From Candidatus Peregrinibacteria bacterium (GTDB lineage: Bacteria > Patescibacteriota > Gracilibacteria > UM-FILTER-43-11), in contig JAFGCT010000006.1 of NCBI GenBank assembly GCA_016932505.1, positions 30,932 through 94,931 on the forward strand: DNA of 64,000 bases. The letters run 5' to 3'. The translations under genes were made by a program, and so were the position numbers. Each line of letters starts with the position of its first letter. The first letter of the stretch is position 1. The notes below the pieces were generated by a model that saw nothing but the letters and a program-made list of their open reading frames with translations, searched no databases and was not told the origin of the DNA. This document shows, in pieces, positions 51,399-60,102 of the stretch.

Positions 51399-51529
51399 TG
51401 TCTGAACTGTGATTATATATGATGAAGTGATAAACGCGATTATTTAAAATGTAGAGATGCATTGCAATGCATCTCTACAGGGTTTAATAATAAATCGTAC
51501 AACGTTAATCGTTAATCACAGTTCAGACA
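51399..51529. repeat. hairpin element with 17-bp terminal arms and a nested 28-bp perfect palindrome
   Basis: TGTCTGAACTGTGATTA / TAATCACAGTTCAGACA; GTAGAGATGCATTG/CAATGCATCTCTAC at 51451-51478. Confidence 0.93.
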
Positions 51530-52752: not shown

Positions 52753-53370
52753 TTAAAATTCAATATTTTCCCTTAGCCTTTTTCCAAAACCGAATTTCAT
52801 ATCCGCAGAAAGATGCCATTTGCTATCCTTCATATCTGCACCAGAGATTTTATAATGAAATGGCGCATCAAGCGATGAAAGCTCAAGATCATCTATAACA
52901 GGAATCATTACATAATTAGCGTAATCAAAACTCGCACAAGGCTGAGTCGCAGGTCCAATAGTATAATCAGGAATAGATTTGATATTGGCATGTTCAGTCT
53001 GCAAACCGTTTTCACAAAGATTATATTCAATTTTTAAATCGGCAGGAGCGCTAATTATATCTTCATAGGTTGCACTCGCTAGACTGTCCAAGGCACCAGT
53101 TATTGTGCTCACATTTTGAGTTAAAGTAATATCAATTCCCTCATAGTTATCACTTGTCTTATTAACCACCATTTCACTTGGGTTTTCCTTTAAATAATCC
53201 ATAAAACTATCAAAAAATGCCTTGGTATTCTTGTACTCAATTGTTTCCTGTTGTTGTTCCTGAAGTTTACTAAAGCGAATAGCCGCATAGAAAAAGACAG
53301 TCGTCATAAGTACTCCGAGCATGACAGTCCAGATAAGAATCGACCCTTTTTTTAAATTTGATTTAATCAT
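52753..53370 (-). CDS. PilX-like pilus assembly / minor pilin-like protein
   Basis: N-terminal KKGSILIWTVMLGVLMTTVFFYAAIRFSKLQEQQ within pilin cluster. Confidence 0.6.
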   Translation of the reverse strand: MIKSNLKKGSILIWTVMLGVLMTTVFFYAAIRFSKLQEQQQETIEYKNTKAFFDSFMDYLKENPSEMVVNKTSDNYEGIDITLTQNVSTITGALDSLASATYEDIISAPADLKIEYNLCENGLQTEHANIKSIPDYTIGPATQPCASFDYANYVMIPVIDDLELSSLDAPFHYKISGADMKDSKWHLSADMKFGFGKRLRENIEF

Positions 53371-55175
53371 TAATTTAAAGAGGCGTTAATAACATAAGAA
53401 TTTTCACTATCTGTTTCAAAATCCATCTGCAAAATATTTCCACTGTTAGTTTCAGAAAACTCAAGATCAGTCACATCATATCCACTTTGATAATCATATT
53501 CGGAAAAGCCAGTATCGAATTCAGCATCAGTGGTGTATTCCAAATTACTACTCCATCCAAGACCTGTTGGATAGGGAAGTGAAATACCCAAATCTTCAAT
53601 TGTATCTTCGGATGTTCCAATTACTCCGTTTCCTACACGCAAAACTTTATTCTGAGAATATGTTAGAACATCATTTTCGTCATATATATCAACAGAAATA
53701 GGATTAAATCCGCTAGTAATACCGGAAGTCGATAAATCGAAAACAAAAGTAAAACCTCCACCAAAAACTTCATCTATAATCACTATGTCTCCAGGTGAGA
53801 AGGAATAATCAGTATTTGGATCTACATATACACCTGATGGCTGGGGAACACCAGTTACATTAAAAGGGTCTTTGTCTGGTCCAATTAGTATTGGGTCTCC
53901 TGATTCAAAAATATTATTATCTTCACTAACTGTAAAACGTTCAAAATACAAATCACATGGGTCGATTTCATTAGCACATACCTGTTTTGTTGCATCTCCG
54001 TTAATAATAGGTACAGAAAAATACATGCTTAAAACACTTCCAACGGAATCAAATTTTGCAGTATGTAAATCATTACTAATTAATAAATCTTCGCTGGCGC
54101 TTATGTTTTGAGGGAATTTTATATCAATTTTTGAGATTTTCTGCATAGGCATTTCATTTGGTATCAAAAAATCATAAGCAGTATATTCATCAATAGAAGG
54201 TGGATCAGTTACTACTAATATCCTTCCGCTTCCGGTATCTGCAATATATAGCTGTCTTTTTGCGGAATCTATTGCAAGCCCAGTAGGGAAATTTAATTTG
54301 CAGAATTTTGCAGTATTATCACAAGCATCACTTTCACCTTCGCCTGCAACCGTTAGCAGGGACGTATCCAGAGGATAACCGCTACCAAGATTGGTGCTTA
54401 GCCATACTACTCGGTTATTATAAGTATCCGAAACAAACAGACGATTATTGTTATAAGCAAGCCCTGTTGGAAAATTAAGACCATCGCCCATTGATTCAAT
54501 AATTGTATCACCGTCGATATCCATTTTTATAATCCTGTCATTACCTGAATCCGAAACAAACAAATCGGTTCCATCAGTTGTAATATCTGTTGGGTGAGCA
54601 AACTCTTCTTCTGTAGAAATTGGGGAACAACTATCAATTGAACTGTTGCATTTATAAATCTTATTTTCCAGCGGTGCGGCAATATAGTAATCCGACCCAA
54701 CTTTGGTAATACCGGCTGGATTAAGAATATCAGATTCCGCACTTTCCCTATTTCCAATCTTCCCATTAAAAACAAAAAAATCCTTAAACACTATTTTCCC
54801 ACCCACCTTTCCAATAAAAGTAAATGGCAATTCGACATCAGTAATCTTATTTTTAATTACAATGGAAGAAGGTGTACCTGAAAAAGGTGACGGTGATTGA
54901 ATTTTATCAACATTAGCCAGTTTCCCTCTAATTATCTCATTTGCACTAAAGTCACCCTGACTTTCATCCAGTTTTTCCTGTGTAAGAATAATATTATGAA
55001 AAGAACCTGCAAAAAACGCACTAACTCCAATCATTAAAAGAGCGGTTATTGTAACTGAAACGATTAGCTCGACTAAAGTGAAACCTTGCGTATTGCGACT
55101 TTCGCATAACGCACAACGCACAACGCAAAACCTTTTTATTCCCAATGTAGTTTTGTTATTTTGTCGTTTCGTCAT
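53370..55175 (-). CDS. pseudopilin with NHL-type beta-propeller repeats
   Basis: QGFTLVELIVSVTITALLM prepilin N-terminus; HPTDITTDGTDLFVSDSGNDRIIKM, FPTGLAYNNNRLFVSDTYNNRVVWL, FPTGLAIDSAKRQLYIADTGSGRI. Confidence 0.88.
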   Translation of the reverse strand: MTKRQNNKTTLGIKRFCVVRCALCESRNTQGFTLVELIVSVTITALLMIGVSAFFAGSFHNIILTQEKLDESQGDFSANEIIRGKLANVDKIQSPSPFSGTPSSIVIKNKITDVELPFTFIGKVGGKIVFKDFFVFNGKIGNRESAESDILNPAGITKVGSDYYIAAPLENKIYKCNSSIDSCSPISTEEEFAHPTDITTDGTDLFVSDSGNDRIIKMDIDGDTIIESMGDGLNFPTGLAYNNNRLFVSDTYNNRVVWLSTNLGSGYPLDTSLLTVAGEGESDACDNTAKFCKLNFPTGLAIDSAKRQLYIADTGSGRILVVTDPPSIDEYTAYDFLIPNEMPMQKISKIDIKFPQNISASEDLLISNDLHTAKFDSVGSVLSMYFSVPIINGDATKQVCANEIDPCDLYFERFTVSEDNNIFESGDPILIGPDKDPFNVTGVPQPSGVYVDPNTDYSFSPGDIVIIDEVFGGGFTFVFDLSTSGITSGFNPISVDIYDENDVLTYSQNKVLRVGNGVIGTSEDTIEDLGISLPYPTGLGWSSNLEYTTDAEFDTGFSEYDYQSGYDVTDLEFSETNSGNILQMDFETDSENSYVINASLN

Positions 55176-55747: not shown

Positions 55748-57082
55748 ATGTCGCTATTAGATGTTCTACAAAAGGAAAGCGAGGAAGTGTTGGCTAAAAA
55801 GGTCGAAGATAAGCCAGAAGAGTCAATAATTTCTCCCGCCACAAATGACATTCAAATTGAATCAAAAGAGGAGGATGTTAAGCCTGAAATTAGTGAAAAG
55901 CCTAAAGGCGATGTATTTGACGAAGATGAAATTCCAGAAATAGTGGATGAAATATTCAAAAAAGCAATTGAAATGCACGCAAGTGATGTCCATTTTAAAC
56001 CTACTGATGATAAATTCGAGGTTTATTACAGAATCGACGGGAATATGATTGAGCATAAAGTTTATGACAGGATTTTTCACAATCCTATTATTGCTCGTAT
56101 TAAAATTATCTCCAGTTTAAAAATTGATGAACACCGATTGCCTCAGGACGGTAAAAGTAGCTATAAGGGTACAAACAAAGAAGTTGACCTTCGTGTTTCT
56201 ATTCTTCCAACTCAATATGGTGAAAAGGTTGTTATACGTTTGTTAGAAAAAAATCCTGAAATGGTGAATCTAAGAGACTTAGGCATGCTTCCTAATATTC
56301 TTATGAAAGTTGAAAAGCATTTACAGGGAACATATGGAATGATACTTGCGGTAGGTCCTACCGGTAGTGGTAAATCCACATCTCTCTTTTCAATGATTTC
56401 CACCTTCAATGCTGAGGAATATAATATCTCAACTCTGGAAGATCCGATTGAATATAAAATTCCAAATGTAACTCAAACTCAGATTAATGTGGAAATAGGT
56501 TTCGATTTTCCTGATGGTCTTAGAACCCTTGTTCGTCAGGATCCGGATATCATAATGGTTGGAGAAATACGTGATAAAAAAACAGCTTCTCTTGCAGTTG
56601 AATCTGCATTAACCGGTCACTTGGTATTCTCTACACTACATACAAATACCGCTACGGGTACAATACAACGTCTGCTAAATATGGAAATTGATAGATTTCT
56701 TATAACTGCAGCAGTTAAGCTTATTATCTCACAGCGTCTTATTAAAAAAGTATGTTCAAATTGTCGTGAAAAATACGAAGTTCCAAAGAAATATTACGAA
56801 TTATTCAAAGAACAAACTGATATTGACCCACAAAAAGCATTTCTTTACAAAGCGAAAGGTTGTGATAAATGTAACAACACCGGTTATAAGGGTAGAATCG
56901 GACTTTTTGAAGTTTTGGAAATGACACCAGCTATCGAAGAACTAATTATAGGCAATGCCTCTAATGCGGAAATCGAAGCGCAAGCTGTTAAAGAGGGGAT
57001 GATTCTTCTAAAAAAAGATGCACTTTATAAGGCCATAACAGGTGATATTACTATTGAAGAAGCTTTGCGGGTAATGCTTTAG
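55748..57082 (+). CDS. PilB/GspE-type ATPase
   Basis: VGPTGSGKSTSLFSMI, ISTLEDPIEYKI, RQDPDIIMVGEIRD, CSNCREKY...CDKCNNTGYKGRIG. Confidence 0.95.
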   Translation: MSLLDVLQKESEEVLAKKVEDKPEESIISPATNDIQIESKEEDVKPEISEKPKGDVFDEDEIPEIVDEIFKKAIEMHASDVHFKPTDDKFEVYYRIDGNMIEHKVYDRIFHNPIIARIKIISSLKIDEHRLPQDGKSSYKGTNKEVDLRVSILPTQYGEKVVIRLLEKNPEMVNLRDLGMLPNILMKVEKHLQGTYGMILAVGPTGSGKSTSLFSMISTFNAEEYNISTLEDPIEYKIPNVTQTQINVEIGFDFPDGLRTLVRQDPDIIMVGEIRDKKTASLAVESALTGHLVFSTLHTNTATGTIQRLLNMEIDRFLITAAVKLIISQRLIKKVCSNCREKYEVPKKYYELFKEQTDIDPQKAFLYKAKGCDKCNNTGYKGRIGLFEVLEMTPAIEELIIGNASNAEIEAQAVKEGMILLKKDALYKAITGDITIEEALRVML

Positions 57083-57097
57083 GTGGGATTATTGAGT

Positions 57098-57522
57098 TTA
57101 TTACGATTATTGGGATTATTAAGATGAATATAAACAAAAATGGAAAAAATATATACAGGAACATTTAGGGGGCTAATTGCATGGCAAAAAGCAAGAGATC
57201 TTACATTAGAAATCTATAAACTATCTGGTAATTTTCCTGATGTAGAAAAATTTGGTTTATCGAGTCAAATAAGACGTGCATCAGTTTCTGTGATGTCTAA
57301 CCTTGCAGAAGGTAATCAAAGAAACGGAATACGTGATAAATTAAATTTTTTGAATATTGCGTATAGCTCATTAGTAGAAGTAGATAACCAAATTGAATTG
57401 GCATATCAACTTAAATATATTTCTGAAAAAGAATATCTGCATGCCATAGAATTAATAAATAAGACTGGATATTTAATTTTTCGTTTATCTGAATCAAAAA
57501 AGAATCCCAATAATCGTAATAA
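57098..57522. repeat. 20-bp perfect inverted repeats flanking the four-helix-bundle coding segment
   Basis: TTATTACGATTATTGGGATT (57098-57117) / AATCCCAATAATCGTAATAA (57503-57522). Confidence 0.95.
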
Positions 57523-58177
57523 TCCTAAAACTCCCAATAATCTCAATAAAAAAGGATTTAGCCTAGTAGAACTAATGATAGTCATTTCAATAATCGCGAT
57601 TATGACAGTTGCCGGTGTAGTCGGCTTCCGTGGTTCCGGAGATACCTTGGTTGTAAAACAGGTAAAAGGAATTATTGAAGATACTGTAAAAACTCTTGAG
57701 CTTGAAATAATCGGTGATGAGTATGAAAAAAGTACAATGCATTTTTTACCAAATTTTCTTGTGGTGGTAAGCGAAAAAGGAGATGAAAGTCTGGATTTGA
57801 GTTTGGGTGCTGATTGTACAAATGGTCAGTTAATTAACATAGAAAACGACGGAAGTCTTATTAAGAGAGATAAAGAAGGAAACCCATTGGAATCAAAAAA
57901 TGTTAGTTCAGGTACAACTGAATGTATTGCATTTAATAACTCTTCGGAAATTGAAGAACATTATCAATTATCATCCGCTGGTGCAATTTCACCAATAATC
58001 CGATTCATTCATTTTGATGTTAGACGTGAAAAACCAGCAGGTGTGGTTCTTTCCGGAGACACAGATGAAACTATGGAAATTTCTGCACCATACGCTAAAA
58101 AAATTACATCCGATGGATCAATAGATTTGGTTTTAACAGGAGCTGAAGGTCATCAGGAAAATTTTTCCATAAAATAA
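57140..58177 (+). CDS. four-helix-bundle (S23/IVP-like) protein fused in frame to a type IV prepilin
   Basis: WQKARDLTLEIYKLSGNFPDVEKFGLSSQIRRASVSVMSNLAEGNQR...then NKKGFSLVELMIVISIIAIMTVAGVVGF. Confidence 0.88.
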   Translation: MEKIYTGTFRGLIAWQKARDLTLEIYKLSGNFPDVEKFGLSSQIRRASVSVMSNLAEGNQRNGIRDKLNFLNIAYSSLVEVDNQIELAYQLKYISEKEYLHAIELINKTGYLIFRLSESKKNPNNRNNPKTPNNLNKKGFSLVELMIVISIIAIMTVAGVVGFRGSGDTLVVKQVKGIIEDTVKTLELEIIGDEYEKSTMHFLPNFLVVVSEKGDESLDLSLGADCTNGQLINIENDGSLIKRDKEGNPLESKNVSSGTTECIAFNNSSEIEEHYQLSSAGAISPIIRFIHFDVRREKPAGVVLSGDTDETMEISAPYAKKITSDGSIDLVLTGAEGHQENFSIK

Positions 58178-58193
58178 TCTTTAATAATAAATA

Positions 58194-59483
58194 ATGTCAG
58201 CATTTGTTTCAAAAATAGGCGATACATTCTCCGATATCTGGTTCGAGATTGAATTGTTTTTTGGAAAAATTTTTAAGAGAAAGGCAAAGAAAAATCCTGT
58301 CGTTTCAGATAGTCATATCTCATCAACTTCCGCAGGAACAGATGCGTCTTATTCTGGTACTTCGGAGAAAGAAAATGAAAATGTTGAAAAAATGCCTTTC
58401 GGTTTAAGAATGCTGAGGATGGGTTTTAAAGATCGTTTATTCTTTTATGATCAGATGTCCACATTAATTGGCTCAGGGGTTACTTTAATCGAATCACTTT
58501 CACTTGTTCAAGCTCAGACACAAAGTAAGAATTTAAAAAAGCTTTATAAAGAAATAATCCATGACATTAATACGGGTATGAGTCTTGCTGATTCCATGTA
58601 TAGATTTCCTCATGTTTTTCCAAGAATGCAGGGCGCTTTAGTAGAAGCTGGAGAAAAAAGTGGAAATTTAAAAGCGGTGCTTGCCGAACTCGTAGAAGAA
58701 ATGGAGTCTTCTCAGGATTTTAAAAGAAAAATAAAAGGGGCTATGTTTTATCCGATAATTCTTTTGGTTCTTGCGCTTGGAATGGTTACAGGGATGATGA
58801 CATTTGTAATACCTAAAATCTCATCAATGTATAAGGAGGCTAATGTAGCATTACCAACAATCACCCAAAAAGTAATCGGTTTGAGTGAATTCATGGTATC
58901 AAACTGGATGATGATTTTGTTATACATTGTTGGAACAATTCTTTTTCTTTGGGGATTTTTCTGTAAAACAAAAATGGGAAGAAAAATTTGGGAAGAATTT
59001 GTGAGTATTACTCCTGTATTTGGTACAATTAGCAAAGAAAAGAACCTAATGGCAATATCCGCAAATATGAGCATGCTAATGAAAAGCGGTGTTTTAATTA
59101 GTGATGCTTTTGAAATTACAGAAAATACACTCGATAACATTCATTATAAAGAAGCACTAAAAGAAATTCACAAAGGGGTTGTAATGGGTAAAGAAGTAAG
59201 TGAAATGATGGGACTTGAAGATATAAAAGCCCAAAAATTTAAGGTTAATAAACTCTTCCCTCTTCAAATGGCACAGTTGATGCATATAGGAGAAACCACA
59301 GGAACAATCGCGCAAATGCTTACAAAATTAAAACAGAATTATCATAAAAGCATTGATTATAAACTGAAAAATATTTCGACGGTAATTGAACCACTTATGA
59401 TTTTTTTGGTTGCGATAATTGTTGGAGTTATTCTGCTAGCAGTTATGATGCCATTCTTTAATATAGGTTCGACAATTAATTAA
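58194..59483 (+). CDS. PilC/GspF-type inner-membrane protein
   Basis: FYDQMSTLIGSGVTLIESL, FPHVFPRMQGALVEAGEKSGNL, VIEPLMIFLVAIIVGVILLAVMMPFF. Confidence 0.94.
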   Translation: MSAFVSKIGDTFSDIWFEIELFFGKIFKRKAKKNPVVSDSHISSTSAGTDASYSGTSEKENENVEKMPFGLRMLRMGFKDRLFFYDQMSTLIGSGVTLIESLSLVQAQTQSKNLKKLYKEIIHDINTGMSLADSMYRFPHVFPRMQGALVEAGEKSGNLKAVLAELVEEMESSQDFKRKIKGAMFYPIILLVLALGMVTGMMTFVIPKISSMYKEANVALPTITQKVIGLSEFMVSNWMMILLYIVGTILFLWGFFCKTKMGRKIWEEFVSITPVFGTISKEKNLMAISANMSMLMKSGVLISDAFEITENTLDNIHYKEALKEIHKGVVMGKEVSEMMGLEDIKAQKFKVNKLFPLQMAQLMHIGETTGTIAQMLTKLKQNYHKSIDYKLKNISTVIEPLMIFLVAIIVGVILLAVMMPFFNIGSTIN

Positions 59484-59558
59484 AAGGAATTGTCCATATG
59501 ATAATCAAAATCTTGGTCGTTCCGAATATAATGGTCTTGATATGATTTTTGCCATTGG

Positions 59559-59583
59559 AACCTGCCTGCCGGTAGGCAAGGTT
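59559..59583. repeat. imperfect palindrome AACCTGCCTGCCGGTAGGCAAGGTT inside RAYT
   Basis: Direct reading; encodes CLPAGR on the minus strand. Confidence 0.85.
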
Positions 59584-59659
59584 TTGGGTAGGGTATTTGC
59601 GTTGGGTGGTTTTTTTGGAATTGTTTTTGATAATCGGTTATATCAAATTTATTTCGATA

Positions 59660-59703
59660 AATCTCCCGAAAGCGCGGTGCCGGCACCGCGCTTTCGGGAG
59701 ATT
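59660..59703. repeat. 44-bp perfect palindrome inside RAYT
   Basis: AATCTCCCGAAAGCGCGGTGCC / GGCACCGCGCTTTCGGGAGATT. Confidence 0.97.
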
Positions 59704-60102
59704 GGATGCGATTTATGTCACACGATATACTTGTTTTCAATGACCGCATTACCTCCGAAATATTAAAATTATCCGATGGCCTTATCAACAAATGAAAATG
59801 ATTGTGTAACAAAACCCAACCATACAAATAAAAACCTTTCAATTTTTTACAAATCCTCAAATTTTCCACAAACAAATCACAAAATATTGATTCTTTAAAA
59901 TACGGATGTCCGTTTTCTGTTTTACACGACACAAAATATACCGCATCTTCAAAATGTATACGTTTTTGGCTGTCTCGATGTTTTTTTATCATAAATCTTA
60001 TTCACTTAAATACTATAAATTCAATTAAATTCAAAAATGAGAGCTAATATTATCACATATGACAAAAAATGCGAAATGCGAAATCAGAAATGCGAAATAT
60101 AT

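Follow-up and report, generated by a model that had tools for sequence, protein, structure and literature searches.

An S23-encoding hairpin element between pilB and a type IV prepilin in a Patescibacteria genome, and inverted tandem-repeat arms around S23 genes of other bacteria

The S23-prepilin fusion between pilB and pilC

The window, a 64,000-nt stretch of a draft genome of approximately 1.35 Mb in 39 contigs (G000, the source genome), carries a pilB-prepilin-pilC cluster in which a single reading frame, 57140-58177 (345 aa), lies between pilB and pilC. The closest named relatives of the source genome are a Candidatus Peregrinibacteria genome and other Patescibacteria genomes from metagenomes. 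The following features were located.

55748-57082 (+): pilB-type ATPase (T2SSE; PF00437, E = 1e-117), its TAG stop 1 nt before the upstream arm
57084-57120 (+): upstream hairpin arm, a degenerate array of the 9-mer GATTATTGG (inverted-repeat and direct-repeat detection; period 9)
57098-57117 (+): 20-nt perfect core of the upstream arm, TTATTACGATTATTGGGATT (repeat search)
57140-57493 (+): S23/IVP four-helix bundle, residues 1-118 of the fusion (PF05635, TIGR02436, fold match to 2GSC)
57500-57549 (+): downstream hairpin arm, an array of the 9-mer CCAATAATC, translated as an N/P-rich linker (sequence, repeats)
57503-57522 (-): 20-nt perfect core of the downstream arm, the exact reverse complement of TTATTACGATTATTGGGATT
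57554-57559 (+): predicted prepilin peptidase site, codons G139 and F140, kept in G004 and G012 (sequence, N_methyl and TIGR02532)
57557-58177 (+): mature prepilin part (profile matches; orthologues in relatives)
58194-59483 (+): pilC-type protein (T2SSF; PF00482, E = 1.9e-54), the end of the cluster

A preliminary description of this DNA had placed an S23 bundle and a prepilin in one frame, and both parts were recovered by profile matches. Residues 12-113 of the fusion matched PF05635 (E = 3.8e-34; 117.6 bits against a curated cut-off of 33.8), and the fold of the bundle agreed with 2GSC at a TM of 0.92. The N_methyl prepilin motif (PF07963) was matched at residues 136-158 (E = 1.9e-7), TIGR02532 also matched, and the N-terminal methylation motif of type IV prepilins, GF[TS]xxE with the cut between G and F, is present. 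The short basic leader of such proteins is not: the leader in the source genome comprises 139 residues, and those of S23-less prepilin orthologues in relatives are short. When the linker between S23 and prepilin was scanned for ATG, GTG and TTG none was found, as had been described earlier, which supports translation from the S23 ATG.

A prepilin peptidase homologue is encoded elsewhere in the source genome and the cleavage site is intact, in line with the earlier proposal that the pilin is made as an in-frame fusion with a cleavable leader, here of approximately 139 aa. Structure prediction of the fusion, which had been suggested as a check, was successful in part: the S23 part was modelled as four helices within residues 9-121 and the linker as disordered, but the pilin part was of low confidence and was left out of the argument.

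Elsewhere in the window, a 601-aa protein with a prepilin motif and NHL repeats is encoded at 53370-55175 (-), beside further pilin-like genes. A REP-associated tyrosine transposase is encoded at 59480-59992 (-), beside pilC, with a perfect 44-bp palindrome (59660-59703) within its frame.

Arms of the pilB element

The 20-bp perfect inverted repeat that had been reported around the bundle was exact, with a chance expectation of 0.01 per window for repeats within three mismatches, and proved to be the core of longer arms. The full arms (57084-57120 and 57500-57536) are 37 nt in length and 84% complementary, the downstream side extending to 57549, and both are tandem arrays of a 9-nt unit. Since the downstream arm is built of 9-nt units, the reading frame is kept through the linker.

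An S23 ORF bounded by complementary arms, as in an intervening sequence (IVS), was thus found at the pilB element. Its site, between pilB and the prepilin, is outside any rRNA gene, and therefore it is not an rRNA IVS; Rfam gave no match in this locus (L003).

The pilB junction in related genomes

The pilB locus was compared in 18 genomes of the family, those named all being metagenome assemblies. Most relatives have no S23 element at the pilB junction, and in eight of them (G001, G002, G003, G005, G008, G009, G011 and G017) a prepilin without S23 follows pilB. These uninterrupted prepilins, for which the preliminary description had proposed to look, support its reading of an IVS-like S23 element placed ahead of the prepilin. 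In G002 the junction has a hairpin from a different repeat family. The prepilin orthologues of G005 (L040) and G014 (L043) have no ATG, GTG or TTG in the interval from the preceding stop to the GF site, a result that points to non-standard start codons or to errors.

The S23-prepilin fusion was present in three genera (G000, G004 and G012), each time with 9-mer arms. In a fourth, G007, the pilB junction holds an unfused S23 gene, also with 9-mer arms, that ends at a stop codon beyond the arm and 3 nt short of pilC; the prepilin of this genome is encoded at another place. This S23 gene groups with the three fused ones in the S23 tree, the relationships of the four being based on approximately 106 aa. 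The in-frame fusion recurs at this locus in two genera besides that of the source genome, and so it does not result from misassembly or a spurious frameshift. The private, recent insertion first envisaged does not agree with these results; presence in four genera indicates that the element is old within the family, yet G001, which has no S23 at pilB, belongs to the same genus as G012, which has the fusion.

Identity among the three fusions was 58-69% in the S23 part and 33-43% in the pilin body. Changes in the S23 part were mostly at third codon positions, and this pattern, together with its conservation above that of the pilin body, indicates selection on the S23 protein. Arms have diverged from genus to genus and are complementary within each of the four cases, a locus's own pair scoring best in three of the four rows.

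That constraint, and the fact that the fusion is common to three genera, would be expected if S23 had long been joined to the pilin as a functional domain, serving in pilus assembly or its regulation, with the repeats irrelevant. We consider such a fusion improbable, because the S23 gene of G007 stands at the same junction unfused and with no prepilin there, because the genomic contexts of S23 genes are many and unrelated (in G002 one is fused to triose-phosphate isomerase), and because the arms have stayed complementary at all four pilB loci.

A second alternative is that RNase III cuts the stem in the mRNA and parts S23 from the pilin message, so that the pilin is made from a non-standard start and the open frame is incidental. 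The S23-encoding IVS of Coxiella 23S rRNA is excised by RNase III (PMC4990558), and the arm duplex of the pilB element was calculated at -38.9 kcal/mol, compared with a mean of -11.5 for shuffled sequence. If the stem were cut, the pilin would lose its start codon; translation from an unusual internal start is possible, however, since some S23-less pilins of the family, those of G005 and G014, also have no NTG before GF. Two results make this alternative unlikely: the frame is open through S23, arm and prepilin in three genera, which would be unexpected if it were useless, and the S23 frame runs past the arm in only five of 55 armed loci from the survey described below.

Arms at other S23 loci

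The source genome has eight S23 genes, of which one is inside a 23S rRNA gene in sense orientation, and is therefore a classical intervening sequence, and the remainder are between protein genes. The preliminary description had suggested a search for S23 ORFs flanked by the same repeat. The outcome was different: none of the other seven genes is flanked by the pilB-element 9-mer, and at least six are enclosed by arms built from another unit. The 9-mer itself recurs, in the approximately 0.46 Mb of the genome that was sampled, in nine or ten ORF-less hairpins of about 60-120 bp, mostly intergenic and often straight after a stop codon.

Complementarity between upstream and downstream flanks was scored at 66 S23 loci, eight from the source genome and 58 from relatives, with the 99th percentile of mismatched flank pairs as the threshold for arms. 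Inverted arms above this threshold were found at 54 of the 66 loci, whereas none of the 58 outer flanks used as controls exceeded it. Each arm is a tandem array, the best-scoring periods ranging from 6 to 15 nt, and the unit differs by locus. At 44 of 55 armed loci the upstream gene is co-directional, and the median distance from gene end to arm is 5 nt.

Unit length was compared with the S23 tree. Nine 9-mer loci, among them the pilB element, formed one clade and eight 11/12-mer loci formed another; nearest neighbours in the tree shared a unit class at 35 of 51 loci (17 expected; a maximum of 28 in 500 shuffles). A test of unit length by mean distance gave a weaker result, reached in 65 of 2000 shuffles. 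The correspondence could reflect mere co-inheritance of arms and gene.

Arms were also found outside the family. Of 36 S23 loci in named genomes of Peribacteria, Chloroflexi and Bacteroidota, 24 exceeded the earlier threshold of 14.5 and 13 exceeded 22.2, the 99th percentile of the cross-pair control in this set, which is inflated because related loci share units. Heptamer inverted arms were seen at the seven cyanobacterial plasmid S23 loci and the one Riemerella plasmid locus that were examined. Searches of the open-licence literature yielded no report of a connection between S23 genes and tandem-unit hairpins.

Several individual loci were recorded in the course of the survey. The triose-phosphate isomerase fusion (L114:239-1336 (-); G002:C69) is in frame across 12-mer arms, and the isomerase keeps its own ATG. 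On the Anabaena sp. 90 plasmid pANA02 (L298) an S23 gene with heptamer arms lies between cas6 and cas4; a CRISPR survey (PMC10910872) likewise includes S23. A second family of dispersed hairpins, starting TGTCTGAACTGTGATT, has copies at 51399-51529 of the window, at L160:15068-15675 and at L171:11545-12064. Two copies of this family with loops of approximately 500 nt encode GxxExxY proteins (TIGR04256, E of about 1e-40), and a second gene family may therefore travel in hairpins. At L170:15322-15903 a 178-aa ORF with no NCBIfam match is enclosed by inverted arms of an 11-nt unit, and is possibly another cargo gene.

ORF-less hairpins and the question of spread

Hairpin density was determined in five genomes only, a small sample with approximately 0.16-0.46 Mb of sequence from each. 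Three genomes, with 8, 16 and 7 S23 genes, had 47.7, 32.5 and 56.2 ORF-less tandem-unit hairpins per Mb, respectively, compared with none in an S23-free genome and a genome with one S23 gene (400 and 217 kb sampled) and none in block-shuffled sequence. In 31 of 44 ORF-less hairpins the unit was a better match to S23 arms from the same genome than to arms from other genomes. Between the congeneric G012 and G001, a 430-bp S23 element in the former corresponds to 48 bp in the latter, with flanks 77-82% identical, a comparison compatible with either ancestral state; one arm of the 430-bp element provides the stop codon of the upstream gene. Target duplication was not seen in the empty-site comparisons.

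The main rival to an S23-linked spread is a host process, replication slippage together with template switching, in which S23 might or might not assist. As an explanation of the whole, hairpins would arise and spread by these processes, and S23 would be a passenger that thrives between operon genes and is joined to its arms by descent. Polymerase slippage has been put forward as the origin of heptamer repeats and of repeats of 5-11 nt (PMC4679880), and no transposase or reverse transcriptase would be required, in agreement with four genomes (G021, G022, G033 and G036) that have no PF00078 or PF01797 matches. Slippage would not account for arms inverted around one gene family, nor is it easily reconciled with the lack of tandem-unit hairpins in the S23-free and S23-poor genomes or with the difference between S23 loci and outer-flank controls and the presence of arms in distant phyla. 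On balance we think this passenger explanation rather unlikely, although it retains more weight than the alternatives above.

A RAYT/REP-type system, in which the Y1 transposase at 59480-59992 moves the hairpins, was suggested by the position of this REP-associated tyrosine transposase 1.9 kb from the element. The four genomes named above carry 7-9 S23 genes with no Y1_Tnp match, and the hairpin density of G033 was the highest of the genomes sampled, which makes it very improbable that such a system is responsible.

Two candidate partners were rejected. A Y1/RAYT partner as a requirement was ruled out by the S23-rich genomes without PF01797, including G033 with its many hairpins, and a reverse transcriptase partner of the kind found in diversity-generating retroelements (DGRs) was rejected because the source genome has no PF00078 match and S23-rich genomes elsewhere also have none. 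Neither enzyme is therefore needed, since S23-rich genomes occur without both.

A model for the pilB element

The results are best explained by an S23 hairpin element with the anatomy of an rRNA IVS, once or now mobile, that was probably inserted behind pilB, where it supplies the prepilin with a start codon and a cleavable leader. We infer both the mobility of the element and the role of S23. The element would be a long hairpin whose loop carries an S23 gene and whose two arms are tandem arrays of one short unit. Insertion at pilB would have occurred in an ancestor of at least four genera, and in three of these S23 would have lost its stop codon and come to read through the downstream arm into the prepilin.

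Translation from the S23 ATG would then yield an S23-linker-prepilin product that inserts via the prepilin helix, and prepilin peptidase would cut it between G139 and F140, leaving a normal pilin and freeing S23 into the cytoplasm. Absorption of the element into the prepilin would be harmless, because the leader is cut off anyway. S23 itself, as an oligomeric RNA- or DNA-binding ring like Avd, would recognise the stem formed by its own repeat unit and favour the spread or maintenance of that stem. S23 may bind the stem of its own repeats, since it is related to Avd (PMC10053308).

A broader model is offered tentatively, as one that we regard as possible but short of probable. S23 would be the protein component of a selfish system of hairpins with a wide distribution; it would recognise stems of a unit length set by clade, and would promote the spread of hairpins, carrying the gene or not, to operon junctions, to rRNA and to loops of other RNAs. 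Such a system would account for IVS, for repeats like the short tandemly repeated repetitive (STRR) sequences and for the pilB prepilin leader.

We know of no function for S23/IVP proteins since their discovery in rRNA intervening sequences and, to our knowledge, no catalytic site has been recognised in S23. The co-occurrence of S23 genes and hairpins in many bacteria provides a first testable link between this family and unexplained repeats. A general link between S23 proteins and tandem-unit hairpins is possible; if S23 genes generally sit in hairpins whose unit length tracks the type of protein, binding could be put to a direct test, and STRR-like repeats and other dispersed hairpins of short units would have a protein as candidate partner. 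How a hairpin element can become part of a host gene is illustrated by the prepilin fusion.

Comparison with known systems

Ordinary type IV prepilins share with the fusion the N_methyl motif, the GF cleavage site and the place between pilB and pilC, but the leader of the fusion is a 139-residue folded domain. The Avd proteins of diversity-generating retroelements have the fold of the S23 bundle (TM 0.82-0.88), and the bAvd Pfam family was matched with E = 3.6e-7, below its cut-off; unlike Avd, the S23 genes of the source genome have no adjacent reverse transcriptase (PF00078).

REP/RAYT systems also combine dispersed short hairpins with one accompanying protein, repeat and protein type being matched, whereas the S23 hairpins need no HUH transposase and have arms that are tandem arrays. 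The STRR sequences of filamentous cyanobacteria are 7-bp tandem repeats of unknown function that can form intergenic hairpins (PMC2670836), and the P6b region of the trnL intron is a stem-loop of repeat motifs (PMC4476775). Tandem 7-mers in hairpins are common to STRR sequences and to the S23 arms of cyanobacterial plasmids, which resemble STRR by their heptamer form. The pilB element differs in its 9-mer units, and the STRR papers cited mention no associated gene.

The closest counterpart is the S23-encoding IVS of 23S rRNA, in which a long complementary stem likewise encloses an S23 ORF in its loop. The pilB element differs in its position between protein genes of an operon, its locus-specific unit arrays, its ORF-less copies and its fusion to a prepilin; it is nevertheless functionally like the S23 intervening sequences, and is related to them.
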